Of a stretch of DNA of 64,000 nt, positions 3,605 to 14,674 are shown one piece after another. The stretch covers positions 1-64,000 of the forward strand of contig BLLX01000004.1 in NCBI GenBank assembly GCA_011959405.1, written 5' to 3'. The first letter of the stretch is position 1. The number at the start of each line of letters is the position of its first letter. A model generated the notes under the pieces. It saw nothing but the letters and a program-made list of their open reading frames with translations, made no database searches and was not told the origin of the DNA. A program made the translations under genes and the position numbers. The DNA comes from Muribaculaceae bacterium (GTDB taxonomy: Bacteria > Bacteroidota > Bacteroidia > Bacteroidales > Muribaculaceae).

Positions 3605-5294
3605 AAATTGCTTCTAAAAACGCGACCACGGCATCACGGTCTGTTTTTGACAGAGCACGGAAACGGTTCACGGAATATGCCGCATCGCTTTGCTCAGAAG
3701 CTCCATGCCACATGATCGCTTCCAGCGTGGTGCGCGCACGGCAGTCATGAAGACGGTCGGCATACTCCGCTCCGGTCACCTTTTGATGCAGACCACGGCC
3801 CCAAAGAGGAGTAGTCCGGCACCATCCGTTGCGTATATCATTCACCATCATCAATTTATGTTGCACCATATCTGTATAAGGCCATATCTTCTGTTCTGGA
3901 TAGCGCGGAAGATCCCGTCCGCCACTTCCATTGAAAAACTGTGCCGGATCCCTCACTTCATCCTTCCCTGTAGTCCACGAAGGACGGTGACAATAGGCAC
4001 AGCCTATCTCCTGAAATAGCTCTTTGCCGCGAGCCACCGACGGATTGTCAATATCACGCACTGCGGGAACGGCCAGCCCCCGGTGCCACACCATCATGTC
4101 TATATAATTCTGGTCTGAAGCCTCGGCTGACAGCGACGTCGAATTGATATATGCCAGAATATCCTTCTCGACATCACCGGAAAACCATTCGGGATGTGTA
4201 CGGTCAGGATCCACTGACTCTATGTAGGCTGGAAAAGCAGCCTGCACTTCCGGATCACGCGAAGCAGCCACGGCATAGAATCCTCCGGCATCCTTATAGT
4301 GGTAACGACGGTCAGAACGTGTCACGTTGGTGATATTCCAGAACGCATTGGCCCCGGCGGCGTCCTGCAGCGGACCGCGCGACAGCGCGTATGTGTAACG
4401 GAACGGATATCCGGCTCCGTCAGAACTCTGTTCCTTCGAGGTGTACAGTCCCGTCCAGTCTCCGCCCTTGAAAACCGCCGGATTCAGTCCGTTTGGCAAA
4501 AATCCGTCCTTCTCCTCCTCTTCATACTGCCTGCGCAGATCCTCGTCAGAGATAGCATCGAGCAAACCTGTCCCGTATATGCCGATGGTCGATTCAAGGC
4601 GCACCTCATAATCACCCATCTGCGACTCCGTAAGCACACCTTGATTATAGGCATAGACAGCAGAAGGCTCCATCGTGACCTCAGGATAACGCAACGCATA
4701 CGTCTCACCGTCATCAAAGCGGTTGCCGAAACGATCGGTATATTCATGCCATTTCAGCATCACGCGGCTCTCGTCAAGCGGAGCTTTGAATGGAGCCACA
4801 GCATGGCCCTGCGGCATACCTGCAAGCCAGTTGACATAGGCCTGGGTCGAGGGATTATACACCACCAGCAGATATCCGTTGCCAGGATCATTAGTGCTGA
4901 ACGGTCCGTCTGGCCGCGACTTGCCATGGCCGTAGCCCGGATGGCAGTGCATGCACGACGAGCGTACGTAGACCGGTCCCAGCCCTCCCCTCACTCCGCT
5001 GTTGTTAGACACATAATTTTTCTCAAACAACTGCTCGCCGCGCTTGAACGAAGCAAGCAGTCCGCCGCGCTCCACACTTTTTGTAGGTTGCTCGAATGCA
5101 GCCGAAGTGGTTATGAACGACGTGCCCAACTCCCCGCCTGCATAATACCACTCTGGGCGTTCGTTCTTTTCCGGATCATGCGTTCCGGAAAGATCGCCGG
5201 GCTTTTCCTCTTCCGCGGAACATGCGGTCACGGCCGTCGCCGCAATGATAACGGCCGGCAGATATAAATACTGTTTCATAATCAACTGTGTCAA
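3603..5294 (-). CDS. Di-heme cytochrome / DUF1111 thiol oxidoreductase-like protein
   Basis: Signal/lipoprotein-like N-terminus (AVTACS), two CxxCH heme motifs (CMHCH, CAYCH), DUF1111-like architecture. Confidence 0.85.
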
Positions 5295-6526
5295 TTATCT
5301 GAGATCAACAATATCACCTCATCAAACACGTCGACAAGATCATTGCAGGCATCCACTGCGGCAAAATTGACATCGTGCATGGACACATCCTGCGAAGTGG
5401 ACGCAAACGGCTCCCTCATGCGCGATATGGCATCGACCGCACTGTCTATGGCCGCTTTCACCCTCAGGTCAAGACCGGGATCCACAGAAGCCACATAATC
5501 GCTGAGAGTATGTGCCGACGGCATGATGTAATCTTCAGTCTCGCCTTCAGCTGGCTGATAACCCATATAGGCATGACGCACCGAGCGGATATTGTCGACA
5601 AAATCCGTAATGGAATTCAACGCGTATGGCGACTCTATATAATCCGGATCCGCCGCCAGACCTGAACCTACCGGATTGCCGATCTTCTGATTGCCCACCT
5701 CGTCGGCTATGTCCTGGGCACCGACAATCAGTTCCTCCACCGCCTGAGCATAACTCACATACATGCTGCCGACTTTTCCGGCATTCTTCATATATGCTCC
5801 GTAATTACGGTCATAGCTAAGTTCAGCATCATCAAGTATCGAGAGTTTTTCGGCCGACACAGTGCCGGGATCGGCCCACGAAGCCTCAAGACGCACGCAA
5901 CAGTTGCGCAAATCATCGGCAACGGCGGCAAGATAATACAGTTCATTCTGTGTAAACCGCTCCACAGGACGTGGCGACGTGACAGCAGCCGACTCCGACG
6001 ACGGCTCGAAAATCATATATTCAATCGCATGAAACCCTAGCAGTCCCTGACCCAGCGACGAACCCACATATTCTCCCGCACTCTCGCGGTCGTGCATCTG
6101 CGCCATCTGCGACGGATTACCGAGCATGGCTTCCATAGCGGTCCTGTCGAGCGGCCATGTGTCGATATGCGGATCAATGTTATAGTCGGCAGCTGCGCCG
6201 AAAAGCCACGCTTCACTCAGCTCCCAGTAGCGTCGGGCTTCGATCCATAGCCTGCCGGCTTCAGCTACCATGTCCGGCGTCAGATTGCCAACGCCGGCCG
6301 CACACATCTCATCGCATTTCGCCGCCAGACGGAGCGACGCATCGGCCAGACCCCGGTAGGTAGGCACCACCGTATTGTTCACATAATCCTCCACCACAGG
6401 GCGCAAAGCGATCTCCTGTGCGTCGGCCGCATACGATCCTCCATCCGCAGGATCATCCTGAGAGCATGACACAAGCATTGCTGCCGACATCGCCGCAGCC
6501 AGGACAAAATAATGATTCTTTACCAT
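5291..6526 (-). CDS. Imelysin family (peptidase M75-like) lipoprotein
   Basis: Lipobox LVSCS; GFHAIEYMIFE matches the GxHxxE imelysin motif; 4-bp overlap with the downstream DUF1111 gene. Confidence 0.85.
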   Translation of the reverse strand: MVKNHYFVLAAAMSAAMLVSCSQDDPADGGSYAADAQEIALRPVVEDYVNNTVVPTYRGLADASLRLAAKCDEMCAAGVGNLTPDMVAEAGRLWIEARRYWELSEAWLFGAAADYNIDPHIDTWPLDRTAMEAMLGNPSQMAQMHDRESAGEYVGSSLGQGLLGFHAIEYMIFEPSSESAAVTSPRPVERFTQNELYYLAAVADDLRNCCVRLEASWADPGTVSAEKLSILDDAELSYDRNYGAYMKNAGKVGSMYVSYAQAVEELIVGAQDIADEVGNQKIGNPVGSGLAADPDYIESPYALNSITDFVDNIRSVRHAYMGYQPAEGETEDYIMPSAHTLSDYVASVDPGLDLRVKAAIDSAVDAISRMREPFASTSQDVSMHDVNFAAVDACNDLVDVFDEVILLISDN

Positions 6527-6564
6527 AAAAGTATAAAAGTATAAAATATGTTTGGTTATTAAAT

Positions 6565-7809
6565 TTATTTCCGACGAGTGAAAAATCCCGTATAAGCCAC
6601 CCCCACCGATACAGACGGCTCATTGTTGTATGGCCTGCGCATAATCCCGGCCGAATACTCCCCCTTGACCACAATCTGCGGAATAGGATAGTAATTTACT
6701 CCGGCGGCAACGCGATGACGTCCGCACCAGTCATACCGGAGAATACCTCCGGCCGTCCTCAGCATGGAATCATAGAAATCATAGCGGGCAAACAGATAGA
6801 ACTTCTGTTTCCTGACCTTTATTGGAGCAAAAATGTCATAACCGGCTTCCACTCCGGCCGATATGGCATCGGATGCCACATTGGTTTTCGGCGAAGGAGA
6901 GTCGTTGCGCATTTTCTTATTGTAGGCGGTGATCCTGTCAGAATTCGACAGATGTCCGTAGATCACCCCGCCGCGCACTATCATGTCATAGCCCGAATAG
7001 TCAAAATCTACCGCTCCGATTGTCAGCAGCCCCTTCACGTCCTCCCAATTGCTGTTAGGCTTTGTCAGAGTATTGCTGAACGTATTGCCGGCATATCCGC
7101 TCACACCGACTCGCAACCCATCAACACGGTAATCCACACGGGCTGCACCCGCTACCGTATTGGCTATTTTGAACTCATAGGGCGACCCGCCACCGGTAGC
7201 TACCCAACCTTCCCGGCCGAAGCGGTCGGAATCAAGGCCGGGCATTATCAAGGCTTCATAGCGCCAGCGTCCGGCGTGTCCCCACAACGATATGCCGGTC
7301 TCATGCCATGTGCAGGGAATGATCTTGGCGTCGCCCTCCGGACGATACACTCCGAAGAATTCCACAGGCATATGTGCACGGTTTGTTGATCCCACCGGCA
7401 CCACAATGTGTCCCACCCGCAGATTCAGTTGCGGCATGAACGATTTCTGAAGCCAGAACTGCTCCAGAGCCACCTCACCCCCACGCTCTACCTCAGTCTC
7501 ATACTCACCACCCTCATCATCCTCCATTTCCACGGCGGTCTCCACCCCGCCATGCTCAAATTCTATCTCCGTACCCATGCTCCAACCTTTGCCGAAATCA
7601 TAGCCGAGATAGACCACTACATGCGGCAGATCCACGCGGCCATGATGCTGACCGGCAAAATTCTGTGGATTTTTATATCTGTTCCATGCGTCCGAAAAAA
7701 AATTATAGGAATAAGTCGCTTCGCCATAGCCGCCCACTGTAAGCTGGGCCGATGCCCCCAGAGCGCACGCCGATGCTCCGATCAGGAGCGATGTGATTTT
7801 ACTGTTCAT
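6565..7809 (-). CDS. Outer-membrane porin-like beta-barrel protein
   Basis: Signal peptide, AQLTVGGYGEATYSYNFF N-terminus, alternating beta-strand pattern, aromatic-rich C-terminus. Confidence 0.75.
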   Translation of the reverse strand: MNSKITSLLIGASACALGASAQLTVGGYGEATYSYNFFSDAWNRYKNPQNFAGQHHGRVDLPHVVVYLGYDFGKGWSMGTEIEFEHGGVETAVEMEDDEGGEYETEVERGGEVALEQFWLQKSFMPQLNLRVGHIVVPVGSTNRAHMPVEFFGVYRPEGDAKIIPCTWHETGISLWGHAGRWRYEALIMPGLDSDRFGREGWVATGGGSPYEFKIANTVAGAARVDYRVDGLRVGVSGYAGNTFSNTLTKPNSNWEDVKGLLTIGAVDFDYSGYDMIVRGGVIYGHLSNSDRITAYNKKMRNDSPSPKTNVASDAISAGVEAGYDIFAPIKVRKQKFYLFARYDFYDSMLRTAGGILRYDWCGRHRVAAGVNYYPIPQIVVKGEYSAGIMRRPYNNEPSVSVGVAYTGFFTRRK

Positions 7810-7841
7810 TGAAACGTGATGGATATTTGGTTATTCGGCTG

Positions 7842-7849
7842 CAAAATTA
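7842..7849 (-). promoter_or_regulatory. -7 element (TAATTTTG on minus strand) of the porin-imelysin-DUF1111-ccs unit
   Basis: CAAAATTA on + strand 33 bp upstream of the porin ATG; -33 element weak. Confidence 0.5.
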
Positions 7850-7989
7850 CTGCCGCTCCACCATCGCCGAAATACTCAAATCATGGTAAAATCACCGCAT
7901 CCCCGGAGCTGACACACCATCGCTATCTAATCACATCGAAGTATGATGCCATGTTTATAGTTTATGATTTATGGGAATGGTTTATAGAC

Positions 7990-8030
7990 AGACAAAGGTG
8001 CGTGTGTCATAAGACCACGCACCTTTGTCT
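7990..8030. terminator. Hairpin terminator downstream of sdaA
   Basis: 15-bp perfect stem AGACAAAGGTGCGTG / CACGCACCTTTGTCT with 11-nt loop. Confidence 0.8.
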
Positions 8031-8057
8031 AATTTATATGAAGTATATTTCAATCGG

Positions 8058-9254
8058 TCATTTGATCACCGCAAGTCCGCCTTTGGCCGTTTCCTTATAA
8101 AGCGAAGGCAGGTCATGGCCGGTCTGCTTCATGACTTCGACAATACGGTCGAAACTCACCGAATGCCTTCCGTCTGAAAAAGCCGAATAAAGGTTGGCAT
8201 CCAGAGCGCGGGCGGCAGCATAGGCATTGCGCTCGATGCAAGGGATCTGCACAAGTCCGCACACCGGATCGCAAGTAAGCCCGAGATGATGTTCCAGCCC
8301 CATTTCAGCCGAATATTCGATCTGGCGCGGCGTGCCGCCAAAGAGCTGGCTGGCGGCCGCGGCCGCCATGGCGCATGCCACCCCCACCTCGCCCTGGCAT
8401 CCGACCTCAGCGCCGCTCACCGACGCGTTATGCTTGACCACATTGCCGAACAATCCGGCTGTAGCCAGCGCACGCAATATGCGCTTTTCACTGAAATTCT
8501 TGGAATTATGCAGATGATACAGCACGGCGGGCACTATGCCGCACGAACCACACGTCGGAGCAGTGACAATCTTGCCTCCGGCGGCATTCTCCTCGCTCAC
8601 AGCCAAGGCATACGCATATAGCAGACCTCGCGATTTCAAGGAATTATTATAGCCAGCGGAATGAACATAATAGCTGATGGCTTTTCGCGACACTCCAAGT
8701 CCGCCGGGCAACACGCCCTCGGCCTCGATACCGCGTTCCACGGCCTCCTTCATCACTTTCCACACCTCGCTGAGATAGTCCCACACTGAACTGTCCTCGC
8801 ATTGCTCAACATATTCCCAGAAAGCATGACCGGTGGTGTCACACCAGTTCAGGATCTCGGCGATAGTGGTCATGGAATATACCGATTCGGAAGTCTTGCG
8901 CTCCTCGCCGTCGCGGATCACGTCGCCGCCGCCTATGCTGTAGAGAGTCACGTCGTCCATCACGGAGCCGTCGGCCGAATACGCCTTGAAACGCATGCCG
9001 TTAGGATGAAACGGCAGAAAAACGTCAAGCTGCCACTCAATCTCTGTGGGCGCGGCAGGCGAAAGCACATCGAGGATAGCCTTGTCTGTAAGGTGACCCT
9101 TACCGGTAGCGGCGAGCGCACCGTAAAGCACCACTTCAAAACGAACGGCCCCGGCATTACGCTTCAGAAACATCCCTGCGGCATTGCGCGGACCCATAGT
9201 GTGCGAACTGCTCGGACCGTAACCTATCTTATAAAGTTGCCTGATTGATTCCAT
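8058..9254 (-). CDS. sdaA: L-serine ammonia-lyase
   Basis: GPSSSHTMGPRNAAGMF N-terminus and APTCGSCGIVPAVLY, GCQGEVGVACAMAAAA motifs of iron-sulfur serine dehydratase. Confidence 0.93.
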   Translation of the reverse strand: MESIRQLYKIGYGPSSSHTMGPRNAAGMFLKRNAGAVRFEVVLYGALAATGKGHLTDKAILDVLSPAAPTEIEWQLDVFLPFHPNGMRFKAYSADGSVMDDVTLYSIGGGDVIRDGEERKTSESVYSMTTIAEILNWCDTTGHAFWEYVEQCEDSSVWDYLSEVWKVMKEAVERGIEAEGVLPGGLGVSRKAISYYVHSAGYNNSLKSRGLLYAYALAVSEENAAGGKIVTAPTCGSCGIVPAVLYHLHNSKNFSEKRILRALATAGLFGNVVKHNASVSGAEVGCQGEVGVACAMAAAAASQLFGGTPRQIEYSAEMGLEHHLGLTCDPVCGLVQIPCIERNAYAAARALDANLYSAFSDGRHSVSFDRIVEVMKQTGHDLPSLYKETAKGGLAVIK

Positions 9255-9346
9255 ATCATTGATTTATGACCGCAAAAGTACTCAAAATCCCAAAAACAGG
9301 CAACTGAAAACCGACAACTGAAAACTTTTTCGTAAATTTGCCGATT

Positions 9347-10567
9347 ATGAAAACAACAATTCTGGCAATAGCCATGGCTATGATACCCGGAGCAATCTGG
9401 GCCGCTCCCGCACGGGTGACTCCGCAGGATGCTCTCAGCGCAGCCAAGGAGGCTTTTGACGATTATAACCCATCGCTGGCACGAAAACATATCGAGGAAT
9501 GCCGGAAAGCGATGAAACGCACCCGTAAAACGGCTCTCACCGAAGCGGCAGACTCACTGGAGGAACGCGTGGACCGGCTTGAATCCATGATGCAGCGCGT
9601 AGAGCAGATAGTGGTGATCGACAGCATCACCGTGGACAAGGAGGCGTTTTTTGAGACATACCGTCTCAGCCCTTCGGCTGGAGGACTCTATTCACCGGCC
9701 ACACTGCCCGAAGAATTCGATGTAGCCGACAACACCGTAGTCTACATGCCTGAAAACGGCCAGTCGATCATCTGGGGATCAAACTCAGGACTGATGGAGA
9801 GCGTCCGTTTCACCGACGGCACATGGGACACTCCCACCCCGGCCGGCGAAATACTGGACCAGGGCGGCACGGCAAATTTCCCGTTCGCGCTCACCGACGG
9901 CATAACTCTCTACTATGCCACCCAAGGCGATGACTCTATGGGCGGCTACGATATCTACATATCGCGGCGCAACGACAACGGAGACTTTCTGACGCCGCAG
10001 AACATGGGCATGCCCTACAACTCGCCTTACGACGACTATCTTCTGGCCATAGACGAGGAAACCGGCACAGGATGGTGGGCCACCGACCGCAACCGCCTTG
10101 GCGACCGCATCACCATCTACGTGTTCATTCCCTCGTCAATGCGCATCAACCATCCTGTCAATGCTCCAGACCTTGCATCAAGGGCACGTCTCGACAACTA
10201 CCGCGCCACATGGCCCGACGGCGCCGACTACGCCGGCCTTCTGGACAGGATCGACAATATAGAGGACTCACACGCCGACAATTCCCCGGATTTCACCCTT
10301 GCCCTGCCCGACGGACGCGTCTACACCCGCTGGAGCGATTTCAAGTCGCCGGTGGCAAGACGGCTCATGGAGCAATATGTCGATGCTCTCGAGGAAGAAG
10401 CCGCCGACTGCCGTATGCTTGAAGACATGCGTGAACGTTTCAAGCCCGGAGACCAGAAATCGGCCACACGCATCCGCCAGATGGAACTTAAGGCAAAACG
10501 TTCGGCAGCGACACTAAAATCACTTATGAACCAGGTGATAATGGCAGAAATTCCGAATGTGAAATGA
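9347..10567 (+). CDS. Secreted protein with TPR-like N-terminus and PD40/WD40-like beta-propeller region
   Basis: ATG at 9347 with signal peptide (ILAIAMAMIPGAIWAAPA); repeats such as NTVVYMPENGQSIIWGSN...GGYDIYISRR. Confidence 0.6.
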   Translation: MKTTILAIAMAMIPGAIWAAPARVTPQDALSAAKEAFDDYNPSLARKHIEECRKAMKRTRKTALTEAADSLEERVDRLESMMQRVEQIVVIDSITVDKEAFFETYRLSPSAGGLYSPATLPEEFDVADNTVVYMPENGQSIIWGSNSGLMESVRFTDGTWDTPTPAGEILDQGGTANFPFALTDGITLYYATQGDDSMGGYDIYISRRNDNGDFLTPQNMGMPYNSPYDDYLLAIDEETGTGWWATDRNRLGDRITIYVFIPSSMRINHPVNAPDLASRARLDNYRATWPDGADYAGLLDRIDNIEDSHADNSPDFTLALPDGRVYTRWSDFKSPVARRLMEQYVDALEEEAADCRMLEDMRERFKPGDQKSATRIRQMELKAKRSAATLKSLMNQVIMAEIPNVK

Positions 10568-12138
10568 TGGACTTTCTGCACAACGCCGACATTGGCATGC
10601 TTATGGCGTTCAACGGGCATCACACCGCATGGCTCGACAGCGCCATGATGTTTGTTTCGGACAGGCATGTGTGGATACCGTTCTATGTCATTCTTGCGGC
10701 ACTCATATTCCACAGATTCGGATGGAAAAAAGCTCTTGTCTACATAGCGGCCATAGGACTTGCCATAACATTCACCGACCAGATATGCGCATCGGTGATC
10801 CGGCCTGCTGTAGCGCGACTGCGCCCATCGAATCTTGACAATCCGCTGTCGGACATGATCACGGTGGTCAACGGCTACCGGTCAGGCTCTTACAGTTTCC
10901 CATCATGCCATGCGGCCAACACCTTCGCACTCGCCACATTCATAAGCCTGCTGTTCCGTCGGCGCACGGCCACAGCAGCTATCCTCACATGGGCCGCCGT
11001 GGTGTCGTGCTCAAGGCTCTATCTTGGAGTACACTATCCGAGCGATCTGATCGCAGGAGCTGTGATCGGGTCTGCCATAGCCGCCGCACTCTATATGCTG
11101 GCCCACATATCGTGCCGCCGATTTTTTGCCGCCGCAATGCTGCTGTTTGCCGCCAACGGCGCCACCGCACAGACCGAATTCAAATGGAACATCGAGCTAA
11201 ACAGCGTATTCGACAACCGCGAATGCGACGCCCGCTACACACCCACGAAAACCTATTTTTTCACACAGCTGGCACCTGAAATCGGAGTGTCGTTCGACTC
11301 CGGACGCCATGCGGTCATGGGCGGCGCCGTGTGGAACCAGCCGATCGGCTGCGAATGGGACGGCCACCGCATATCTCCTACGCTATACTATCTGTACAGC
11401 GGCACCCGATGGCAGTTTGCCATGGGCATGGTGCCGTACAGACATCTGATACGTCCTCTGCCTAACTACATACAGTCGGATTCGACACGATACTTTCAGC
11501 ACAACATCCGCGGAGTGATGACCCGATACCTCGGCGACGAAGGATTCATGCAGGCGTTGGTCGACTGGCGCGGCATGCAGGGCCACGACCGTCGCGAAGC
11601 CTTCGATATAATAGTCATGGGTGAATGGCAACGGCCGCACCGCATATTTCTGGCCGGCGGGCTGATAATGCTCAACCATCTTGCCAAACAGAGCAATCCT
11701 CCGGCCGACCAATATGTAGTGGACAATTTCGTGGCCAATCCTTATATCGGCATAGACCTGTCGGCTCTGAGCCATCCGATAGACAGTCTGACGTTCCGGG
11801 CCGGAACGCTCGCGTCCATGACGCGAGACCGCGCCGACGGACACTGCCACACATCGGCCGGACTATGGGCCGACATAGCCATGAGCTGGTGGCGTCTGAG
11901 CCTGCAGAATACTCTCTACTTATCCGGCAAACCGCTTTTCCCGCTCTACTCACAGTTCGGCAGCCTGCTTCACGAAGGCGAACCGTTCTATGCTTCCGAC
12001 TTCTACAACCGCACAACCATCAAAGGAAATATAATCAACTACAAAAACATGGTCAGTCTGGATGCAGCGCTAGACTTCAATGTGGCTCGCGACAATTTCA
12101 CATTCTATCAGCGGCTGCTCCTGCGCGTGACCATATAA
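10564..12138 (+). CDS. PAP2-family phosphatase fused to a C-terminal predicted outer-membrane beta-barrel domain
   Basis: PAP2 motifs RPAVARLRPS, FPSCHAANTFA, SRLYLGVHYPSDL; internal hydrophobic signal-like segment RRFFAAAMLLFAANGATAQ followed by ~320 aa barrel-like sequence; single uninterrupted ORF. Confidence 0.75.
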   Translation: MMDFLHNADIGMLMAFNGHHTAWLDSAMMFVSDRHVWIPFYVILAALIFHRFGWKKALVYIAAIGLAITFTDQICASVIRPAVARLRPSNLDNPLSDMITVVNGYRSGSYSFPSCHAANTFALATFISLLFRRRTATAAILTWAAVVSCSRLYLGVHYPSDLIAGAVIGSAIAAALYMLAHISCRRFFAAAMLLFAANGATAQTEFKWNIELNSVFDNRECDARYTPTKTYFFTQLAPEIGVSFDSGRHAVMGGAVWNQPIGCEWDGHRISPTLYYLYSGTRWQFAMGMVPYRHLIRPLPNYIQSDSTRYFQHNIRGVMTRYLGDEGFMQALVDWRGMQGHDRREAFDIIVMGEWQRPHRIFLAGGLIMLNHLAKQSNPPADQYVVDNFVANPYIGIDLSALSHPIDSLTFRAGTLASMTRDRADGHCHTSAGLWADIAMSWWRLSLQNTLYLSGKPLFPLYSQFGSLLHEGEPFYASDFYNRTTIKGNIINYKNMVSLDAALDFNVARDNFTFYQRLLLRVTI

Positions 12139-12166: not shown

Positions 12167-12709
12167 ATGAAATCTCTGCACCGACTTCTGGTGGAACGCC
12201 GCAGCATCCGCCGATATACCGAACAGCCCCTTGACCCCGACACCGTAAAAACAATTCTGGAAGCGGCGCTCCTCTCACCCACCGGCAAAAACAGCCGCGC
12301 ATGGCATTTCGTTGTGACCGACAACAAGGACATGCTGGAAAAACTCAGCGAATGTAAGGCTGCGGGCGCCGGCCCGGTGGCGAAATGCGTGATGGCCGTG
12401 ACAGTATGCGTAGACACCACAGCCAGCGAGACATGGGTTGAAGACGGCTCCATCGCCGCATCCAACATGATGCTGCAGGCCCGTGATCTGGGCGTTGGAT
12501 CATGCTGGATAGAAGTCAACGGCCGTCTCACCGCCGACGGCACTCCCGCCGAGGACATCGTGCAGGAACTTCTCGGCATCCCCGAGCATATCCAGCCGCT
12601 GTGCATAGTGACCTTCGGCTATCCCGACGAGACCCGCCAGCCGCAGAACTGCGACAAACTGCTGTGGGAACGGGTGCATATAGGCTCATTCCGCCACGAG
12701 CAATGCTGA
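12167..12709 (+). CDS. Nitroreductase family protein
   Basis: LLVERRSIRRYTEQPLDPDTVKTILEAALLSPTGKNSRAWHFVVT is a classic nitroreductase N-terminus. Confidence 0.9.
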   Translation: MKSLHRLLVERRSIRRYTEQPLDPDTVKTILEAALLSPTGKNSRAWHFVVTDNKDMLEKLSECKAAGAGPVAKCVMAVTVCVDTTASETWVEDGSIAASNMMLQARDLGVGSCWIEVNGRLTADGTPAEDIVQELLGIPEHIQPLCIVTFGYPDETRQPQNCDKLLWERVHIGSFRHEQC

Positions 12710-13491
12710 CAGTCGACTTCATCGGCGCCGGCAATGTCGCCACAAGAATGGCCACAGGCCTTCACCGGTCCGGAGTCAAGGTGCGCCATATAGCATCACG
12801 CAGCACGGAGAGCGCGCGGACACTCGCCGGCGCCACCAAAGCAACGGCCGTGCCGATCGATAGCATAGGCCGGGGAGCGTCCATGGTCATAGTGGCTGTC
12901 AACGACGACGCCATCCGGACGATTCTCGACATGGCGCAGCCACAGGATAATGACACCGTGTGGGTCCACACGTCCGGTTCTGTGAGCATGGACGTGTTTG
13001 ATCCTATGAAATTCCCGCGTCACGGCGTATTCTATCCGTTGCAGACCATGAGCCGCGGACTTGATGTAGACTGGAGCCGGGTGCCGCTGTTCACCGAAGG
13101 CTCCTCGGCTGAAACCGAGAGCATGATCACGGATACCGCCCGCCTTCTCACCCCACGGGTAACTCACCTCAGCTCTGACAAACGCAGGCAACTGCATGCC
13201 GCAGCCGTGATCGGCTGCAACATGGCCGTGTATCTCTGGTCTCTTTCGGAAACGGTGATGCGGGAAGCAGGACTCGATTTTGAAATGATGCGCCCGCTGC
13301 TTGAAGTGACACTCGAAAGAACCCGCTCACTTCCGCCCACCGAAGCCATGACCGGACCCGCCCGGCGCGGTGACCTGCATACAATCGAGGGCCACATGCG
13401 CTCGCTTCCGCCACAGATAGCCGGAGTGTACGGATTTCTGTCGTGGGAAATACTTAAAATATATCACCCTGAACTGACCGACAGAATATAA
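12703..13491 (+). CDS. DUF2520 / Rossmann-fold NAD(P)-binding oxidoreductase-like protein
   Basis: ATG at 12703 (LTVDFIGAGNVATRMATGL, Rossmann GxGNxA); ORF longer than the likely gene. Confidence 0.8.
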   Translation: MLTVDFIGAGNVATRMATGLHRSGVKVRHIASRSTESARTLAGATKATAVPIDSIGRGASMVIVAVNDDAIRTILDMAQPQDNDTVWVHTSGSVSMDVFDPMKFPRHGVFYPLQTMSRGLDVDWSRVPLFTEGSSAETESMITDTARLLTPRVTHLSSDKRRQLHAAAVIGCNMAVYLWSLSETVMREAGLDFEMMRPLLEVTLERTRSLPPTEAMTGPARRGDLHTIEGHMRSLPPQIAGVYGFLSWEILKIYHPELTDRI

Positions 13492-13495
13492 ATAT

Positions 13496-14020
13496 ATGAG
13501 CAGAATTGACTATGATCTCAGCCGTATAAAGGCATTTGTGTTTGACGTGGACGGAGTGCTGTCGCCCGACGTGGTGCCAATCGACGCCAACGGCGCGCCG
13601 GCACGCATGGCCAACGTGAAAGACGGATATGCCATACAGCTTGCCGTGAAGCACGGCTACAAAATCGCTATTATCACAGGCGCCGACACCGAAGTGGTAA
13701 GGCTGCGCTACGAACTTCTGGGCATACGCGACATATACCTGAAAGCGTCACACAAAATCAACATATTGAAGGAATGGATGCGGCAAAACGGACTCACGCC
13801 CGACCAGGTGGCCTATGCCGGCGACGACGTGCCCGACATCGAATGCCTGCAGGCCGTCGGCCTGCCCGTAGCCCCGGCCGACGCATCGGATGACGCGAAA
13901 GAACATGCCCGCTACATCAGCCCTTGCCGCGGCGGTCACGGAGTGGCACGCGACCTCATCGAACAGGTAATGCGCGTACAGGGCCATTGGCTCCATAAGG
14001 ATACGGCATTCGGATGGTGA
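13496..14020 (+). CDS. kdsC: HAD-family 3-deoxy-D-manno-octulosonate 8-phosphate phosphatase (KdsC-like)
   Basis: KAFVFDVDGVLSPDV, AIITGADTEVVRLR, YAGDDVPDIECLQAVG motifs. Confidence 0.85.
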   Translation: MSRIDYDLSRIKAFVFDVDGVLSPDVVPIDANGAPARMANVKDGYAIQLAVKHGYKIAIITGADTEVVRLRYELLGIRDIYLKASHKINILKEWMRQNGLTPDQVAYAGDDVPDIECLQAVGLPVAPADASDDAKEHARYISPCRGGHGVARDLIEQVMRVQGHWLHKDTAFGW

Positions 14021-14086: not shown

Positions 14087-14674
14087 ATGAAATTAATACT
14101 GGCAAGCGGATCGCCGCGACGCAGGGAACTGCTGGCGATGCTTGACATCGACTTCAGAGTCGACACATCGCGCCCGGTGGAAGAAACCGTGCCTGCCGGC
14201 ATGGCGCCGGAGGAAGTGCCTGCCTATCTTTCGCGGCTCAAAGCCGGACCCTACACCGCCACACTGGCCCCCGACGAAGTCCTCGTCACGGCCGATACGG
14301 TTGTGATACTCGACGGAGAGGTGATCGGCAAGCCCCGTGATGCCGCCGAAGCCAAATCCGTGCTGTCGCGCCTGTCCGGACGTGTCCACACCGTAGTGAC
14401 CGGCGTGTCTCTCACCCTTCCAGGCAGAACGCCGCACACGTTTTCAGAAACAACCCATGTCGAATTCTCCGCTATCTCCGCTGAGGAGATAGACTACTAC
14501 GTCAGACGGTATTCCCCGCTCGACAAGGCCGGGGCATACGGAATACAGGAGTGGATCGGAGCTGCCGCCGTAAAAGGAATGACCGGCAGCTTCTACAATG
14601 TGATGGGGCTGCCGGTCAATCGGTTGTATCGTGAACTGAAGCAGTTACTTCAGCGAGATTTCATCCACAAATAA
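14087..14674 (+). CDS. maf: Maf family nucleotide pyrophosphatase
   Basis: LILASGSPRRRELLAMLDIDF and DTVVILDGEVIGKPRD motifs. Confidence 0.93.
   Translation: MKLILASGSPRRRELLAMLDIDFRVDTSRPVEETVPAGMAPEEVPAYLSRLKAGPYTATLAPDEVLVTADTVVILDGEVIGKPRDAAEAKSVLSRLSGRVHTVVTGVSLTLPGRTPHTFSETTHVEFSAISAEEIDYYVRRYSPLDKAGAYGIQEWIGAAAVKGMTGSFYNVMGLPVNRLYRELKQLLQRDFIHK

Follow-up and report, generated by a model that had tools for sequence, protein, structure and literature searches.

A conserved fusion of a PAP2 phosphatase and an LpxZ-like outer-membrane barrel in Muribaculaceae as a candidate signal-peptidase-processed polyprotein

A single open reading frame in a Muribaculaceae genome joins a PAP2 phosphatase domain to a 16-stranded barrel across an internal signal peptide, and we interpret it, with a probability of about 0.62, as a two-enzyme polyprotein for lipid A remodelling in which cleavage, localization and both enzymatic activities are predicted. 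The reading frame, the folds, the homology of the barrel, the history of the gene and the constraint on its junction come directly from the computations described here. The window is the whole stretch of DNA that was analysed, 64,000 nucleotides, and the features of the fusion gene within it are the following.

10564–12138, plus strand: PAP2–barrel fusion ORF, 524 aa, uninterrupted and fused in all ten genus genomes that carry the gene
10564–11103, plus strand: PAP2 integral inner-membrane phosphatase domain, residues 1–180 (PF01569; helices in the full-length model)
10801–10827, plus strand: PAP2 motif C1, R80-x6-R87-P88, invariant in ten fused proteins
10900–10911, plus strand: PAP2 motif C2, PSCH (H116), invariant in ten fused proteins
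11011–11046, plus strand: PAP2 motif C3, SRLYLGVHYPSD (R151, H157, D161), with R, H and D invariant in ten fused proteins
11104–11160, plus strand: internal signal peptide with basic n-region (HISCRR) and hydrophobic h-region, assigned from the charge pattern and because separate orthologues begin here
11161–11172, plus strand: predicted signal peptidase I site ATA↓Q, A200-T201-A202↓Q203, assigned from conservation at −3, −1 and +1
11170–12135, plus strand: 16-stranded outer-membrane barrel, LpxZ-like (AlphaFold, porin folds and hhalign to the LpxZ family)

The frame was as an earlier note on this DNA had given it, running uninterrupted from 10564 to 12138 on the plus strand and encoding 524 residues with three PAP2 motifs. 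Residues 66–179 matched PF01569 (E=1e-22) with 80.7 bits against a gathering score of 27.2, which places the domain in the PAP2 superfamily. The protein carries the PAP2 catalytic pattern of K/R-x6-RP, PSxH and SR-x5-H-x3-D, with the usual first lysine of C1 replaced by arginine, and R80, R87, P88, P113, S114, H116, R151, H157 and D161 were unchanged across the ten fused proteins. Basic loops at residues 49–57, 130–137 and 180–188 give a topology consistent with the positive-inside rule, and by charge bias the domain ends on the cytoplasmic side, the side that the following export step requires. The top curated models for the domain were SepP and PgpB, both far below cut-off, and sequence models failed to separate LpxE, LpxF and undecaprenyl-type subfamilies. 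Since BacA was found in all 11 genus genomes, the PAP2 domain of the fusion is not needed as the only undecaprenyl-diphosphate phosphatase, and we ruled out a role as sole undecaprenyl-diphosphatase. The PAP2 half is most likely a lipid A phosphatase that would supply the barrel with its dephosphorylated substrate. LpxF, the Bacteroidales lipid A 4'-phosphatase (BT1854, PG1587), is likewise a PAP2-type enzyme, and the function of BT1854 has been shown by deletion (PMC5850320).

The fusion is real, conserved and derived. The gene was present in 10 of 11 genus genomes, the eleventh being 88% complete, and in all ten carriers it was a single open frame of 521–577 codons with 51%–58% identity to the window. 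Because the fused form is common to all ten gene-carrying genomes, it is not an accident of assembly, and an assembly or frameshift artefact is ruled out. We searched for the barrel in 60 relatives, 397 family genomes and 295 Bacteroidales genomes, and outside the genus every barrel examined was a separate protein, about 345 aa long and carrying a signal peptide of its own. The long open frames examined outside the genus were rejected as fusions, seven as chance extensions of the barrel frame (G091, G163, G196, G227, G392, G603 and G685) and two as separate genes read through a stop (G271 and G304).

Gene context and phylogeny give the direction of the change. The commonest setting of the barrel is gltX–barrel–waaA, found in 32 of 73 distinct loci, with six more adjoining gltX; waaA encodes Kdo transferase. 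The earlier note had proposed looking for orthologues with the two halves as separate genes, and these occur in two genera (g54 and g7), where a PAP2 gene immediately precedes the barrel gene, with 4-bp ATGA overlaps or short gaps. At three loci (L063, L064 and L082) the PAP2 and barrel genes are in the same frame and separated by stop codons only. In the barrel tree the fused set and the PAP2-adjacent set each formed a clade, with SH-aLRT support of 80 and 85, respectively. The two clades lay within the gltX-linked barrels, and all outgroup barrels were unfused. A concatenated tree parted fused from split forms by one branch with 100/99 support. In the PAP2-only tree of 179 columns the fused set was not a clade, although an AU test did not reject the clade (p=0.12). 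The simplest history is that a gltX-linked barrel moved beside a PAP2 gene and that the stop codon or codons between them were then lost. By this comparison, the predicted signal peptide that formerly led the barrel became the fusion junction. The earlier note missed this split ancestral form, as well as the relationship of the barrel to LpxZ described below.

The second half of the protein is predicted with high confidence to be a barrel. AlphaFold of residues 204–524, with a 56-sequence alignment, gave 16 strands at a mean pLDDT of 96.5 and a pTM of 0.90, which bears out the earlier expectation of a barrel after residue 200. The best PDB folds for this model by Foldseek were 16-stranded porins, with TM-scores of 0.5–0.6. 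The 16 predicted strands, the porin matches and the signal peptides on separate orthologues together identify an outer-membrane beta-barrel. The C-terminus, LLLRVTI, had been flagged as a non-canonical barrel end, but this is not a problem, as the last predicted strand (residues 308–320 of the barrel) extends to the LRVTI end. Residues 203–524 had no Pfam or NCBIfam match, so the barrel belongs to a family that neither database names, and PHROGs and viral-structure searches returned nothing useful. An LpxR-like barrel was also considered and ruled out, with no solved-structure sequence match and no LpxR in the Foldseek top 50. The sequence search of solved structures turned up no LpxZ relative either.

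Profile comparison makes the barrel family a distant homologue of LpxZ (PGN_1123), the enzyme that deacylates lipid A in Porphyromonas gingivalis (PMC11784228). Aligned by hhalign, the two families matched at E=6.6e-9 with a probability of 95.8% across 256 columns, covering residues 2–276 of the barrel at about 14% identity, compared with E=0.14 and E=0.03 for unrelated barrels. The relationship held in both directions: LpxZ genes came up with the barrel profile at 1e-7 to 2e-9 (for example, in G592, G525 and G492), and genes of the barrel family came up with the LpxZ model at 4e-5 to 1e-3. The NCBIfam LpxZ model NF052651 was matched by two distant family members (best E=4.8e-5), and the member L026 scored 22.4 bits against the model's cut-off of 460 bits. 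Seven of 13 invariant barrel columns coincided with invariant LpxZ columns, including E17, W132, E142 and H169 in mature numbering, although the P=8e-6 for this coincidence is flattering because the aligner favours conserved columns. The barrel family thus has both homology to LpxZ and invariant residues in common with it. We note that the window's own barrel had no match to NF052651, and since the link is this remote, its substrate may differ.

The two families are also complementary in their distribution among Bacteroidales. Strong barrel matches occurred in 58 and strong LpxZ matches in 84 of 291 genomes, with an overlap of 0 against 17 expected. Shared ancestry inflates this figure, and at family level the exclusion has P=0.026. 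Six families hold both types, in different genomes. The gene neighbours of the two differ, with neither gltX nor waaA adjoining LpxZ in 30 LpxZ loci, and no PAP2 fusion of LpxZ was seen. In P. gingivalis, LpxF must remove the C4'-phosphate before lipid A is deacylated (PMC11784228), and this order gives a reason to pair the two activities. For the barrel, the most likely function is that of a lipid A deacylase within the LpxZ superfamily.

The best-surviving alternative accepts cleavage but assigns other functions, with the barrel as a porin or other channel, PAP2 as a general undecaprenyl or phospholipid phosphatase, and the fusion serving only to fix their stoichiometry. Porins were indeed the top folds, SepP and PgpB were the models against which PAP2 scored best, and PAP2 enzymes of the LpxE type are able to use several lipids as substrates (PMC11784228). 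Against it stand the reciprocal homology of the barrel family to LpxZ, with matching invariant residues, and the mutual exclusion of the two families. The Kdo and lipid A genes beside these loci (waaA, a KdsC-like gene and, in one genome, lpxA/C/D), on which the lipid A reading draws, and the presence of BacA in all 11 genus genomes likewise argue against this alternative, and we consider it unlikely.

The junction between the two halves is under exactly the constraint expected of a signal peptidase I site. All ten fused orthologues have a basic n-region, a hydrophobic core and small residues at −3 and −1, the features of a signal peptidase I substrate. Between the last PAP2 helix and the h-region there were two to five K/R and zero D/E in every fusion. 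The −1 position was alanine in all ten and was the sole invariant position of the junction, −3 was alanine in seven and serine in three, and −2 held seven different residues. Glutamine occupied +1 in six of ten, following the Bacteroidetes Q-rule; Gln is at +1 in more than 60% of P. gingivalis signal peptidase I substrates (PMC5837995). These positions stand out in a poorly conserved segment, as the mean top-residue fraction across the ten fusions was lowest in the junction (47%), compared with 67% in PAP2 and 73% in the barrel. The full-length AlphaFold model showed the PAP2 helix bundle, a single long helix at 159–197 and then the barrel as in the barrel-only model, with pLDDT below 50 at residues 189–201. 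Since the internal signal peptide looks fully functional, the single chain is probably cut into two enzymes.

The position of the site (codons 200–203 at 11161–11172) and of two in-frame ATGs (11095 and 11137) was correct in the earlier note, which offered two mechanisms for separating the halves: a polyprotein cut by signal peptidase and a barrel translated separately from one of these ATGs. Under the second, the fusion would be nominal, with two initiations. The ATG at 11095 would yield a normal 25-residue signal peptide, and split relatives begin the barrel here, some with ATGA overlaps. Most orthologues, however, lack an ATG in the needed stretch. In three (L008, L010 and L012) the segment from the C3 motif to the h-region contains none of the codons ATG, GTG and TTG, which rules out internal initiation as a general mechanism. 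With at least three of ten orthologues lacking a usable internal start, signal peptidase I cleavage fits better. In addition, all ten genomes have lost every stop between the halves yet kept the cleavage site. Because the start is not conserved among orthologues, we dropped it as the main mechanism and regard it as quite improbable. The pattern of conservation in the ten junctions supports the polyprotein idea well, and the fusion is very probably a signal-peptidase-processed polyprotein.

Least probable of all is that the chain stays uncut, as an inner-membrane PAP2 tethered to an outer-membrane barrel or as a protein lying wholly in the outer membrane, the location suggested for P. gingivalis LpxE (PG1773), since, although that PAP2 protein with a C-terminal beta-barrel predicted in the outer membrane is already described (PMC12704123), it has an N-terminal signal peptide and a C-terminus of about 200 aa and eight strands that is unrelated to the window barrel (hhalign E=0.14), whereas the window PAP2 lies at the extreme N-terminus and its junction keeps a cleavage motif rather than a linker, with pLDDT below 50 at 189–201 and no periplasm-spanning spacer.

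The window fusion and P. gingivalis LpxE are alike in being single Bacteroidales proteins with PAP2 followed by a predicted barrel, but the latter has no internal signal peptide. Look-alikes of the P. gingivalis type (L139, L146 and L149) had an N-terminal signal peptide, PAP2 and a shorter barrel unrelated to that of the window. The PAP2 subfamily is divergent as well, with 29% identity to the window PAP2 over 124 aa in one look-alike, and the window genome had no match to a P. gingivalis-type LpxE PAP2. We therefore ruled out that the fusion is a P. gingivalis-type LpxE, as the barrels are unrelated (hhalign E=0.14 with the look-alikes) and PAP2 stands at the extreme N-terminus. Separately, the look-alikes, with their C-terminal barrel of about 200 aa, seem common in Bacteroidales, often alongside a separate LpxZ-like barrel.

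In the polyprotein reading that we favour, residues 1–180 would form a PAP2 lipid phosphatase embedded in the inner membrane, with a periplasmic active site and a cytoplasmic end. The approximately 22 residues that follow, the barrel's original signal peptide, would pass back into the membrane and form the final segment. Signal peptidase I would cut after ATA, leaving Q203 as the first barrel residue, likely turned into pyroglutamate, and the released 16-stranded barrel would reach the outer membrane via the normal barrel-assembly route. The phosphatase would prepare the lipid A substrate and the deacylase would act on lipid A after its transport, with one precursor giving the two in equal amounts. 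In this reading the fusion arose when two adjacent, co-translated genes lost the stop codon or codons between them. We give about even odds to the fuller proposal that one ORF encodes successive lipid A enzymes for two membranes, released by signal peptidase I, and that the barrel founds a second, LpxZ-like deacylase family, Bacteroidales-wide in the gltX–barrel–waaA setting.

Polyproteins are rare in bacteria. The Bradyrhizobium cytochrome b/c1 precursor FbcH joins an integral-membrane protein to an exported one and is split by signal peptidase at an internal signal peptide, and by analogy it is the closest mechanistic precedent for the fusion. Both FbcH products stay in one inner-membrane complex, whereas the barrel of the window fusion would go to the outer membrane, and no other polyprotein known to us would yield an inner-membrane enzyme and an outer-membrane barrel. 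The series from separate to adjacent to fused genes indicates that the two were joined across a signal peptide whose predicted cleavage site was retained. Lipid A acylation sets the strength of TLR4 stimulation by these abundant bacteria, and in gut Bacteroidales without LpxZ the barrel family offers a testable candidate for a lipid A deacylase.

Genes on either side of the fusion were assigned as follows.

9338–10567, plus strand: secreted PD40-like gene upstream of the fusion, overlapping the fusion start at 10564 by 4 bp
12167–12709, plus strand: nitroreductase-like gene (synteny in six genus loci with wide flanks; family read from sequence)
12703–13491, plus strand: DUF2520 Rossmann-type gene (Pfam DUF2520, E=1.6e-30; synteny)
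13496–14020, plus strand: KdsC-like HAD phosphatase of the Kdo pathway (HAD Pfam matches; synteny; the KdsC name comes from size and sequence)
14087–14674, plus strand: Maf-like gene (synteny in the genus; family read from sequence)

The ORF of the PD40-like gene is listed from a TTG, with an ATG at 9347, and it matched the PorE and CHU_0125 models in part, with scores far below their cut-offs. The gene lies on the same side of the fusion in the genus. Its 4-bp overlap with the fusion is as the earlier note described, but the functional coupling suggested there is weaker, as two genus members carry a gene for a CstA-like transporter (L099 3903–5387 and L100 4721–6199) between the PD40-like and PAP2–barrel genes and the PAP2–barrel gene pair occurs without a PD40 gene in other genera. 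At 6565–7809 on the minus strand of the window, two genes ahead of the PD40-like one, is a separate predicted outer-membrane protein of 414 aa with a signal peptide, beta-rich and with no Pfam match.

We also observed several related arrangements in other genomes. In G220, a stand-alone barrel gene (L129 4038–5087) adjoins an opposite-strand cluster of lpxA, lpxC-fabZ and lpxD-like genes (5160–8337), of which lpxA was scanned against Pfam and the others were named from sequence. In G186, a stand-alone PAP2 protein with a signal peptide (L128 2041–2796) is encoded two genes upstream of the barrel gene and resembles the N-terminal half of P. gingivalis-type LpxE. At two further loci (L084 4107–5819 and L090 1403–4068), a stand-alone PAP2 orthologue immediately follows the gene for a membrane enzyme of the sulfatase/LTA-synthase type (PF00884 in L084), possibly a lipid phosphoethanolamine transferase. 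Finally, an LpxZ-family gene and a window-type PAP2 gene are close neighbours on opposite strands in L160 (80–397 and 1453–2514).
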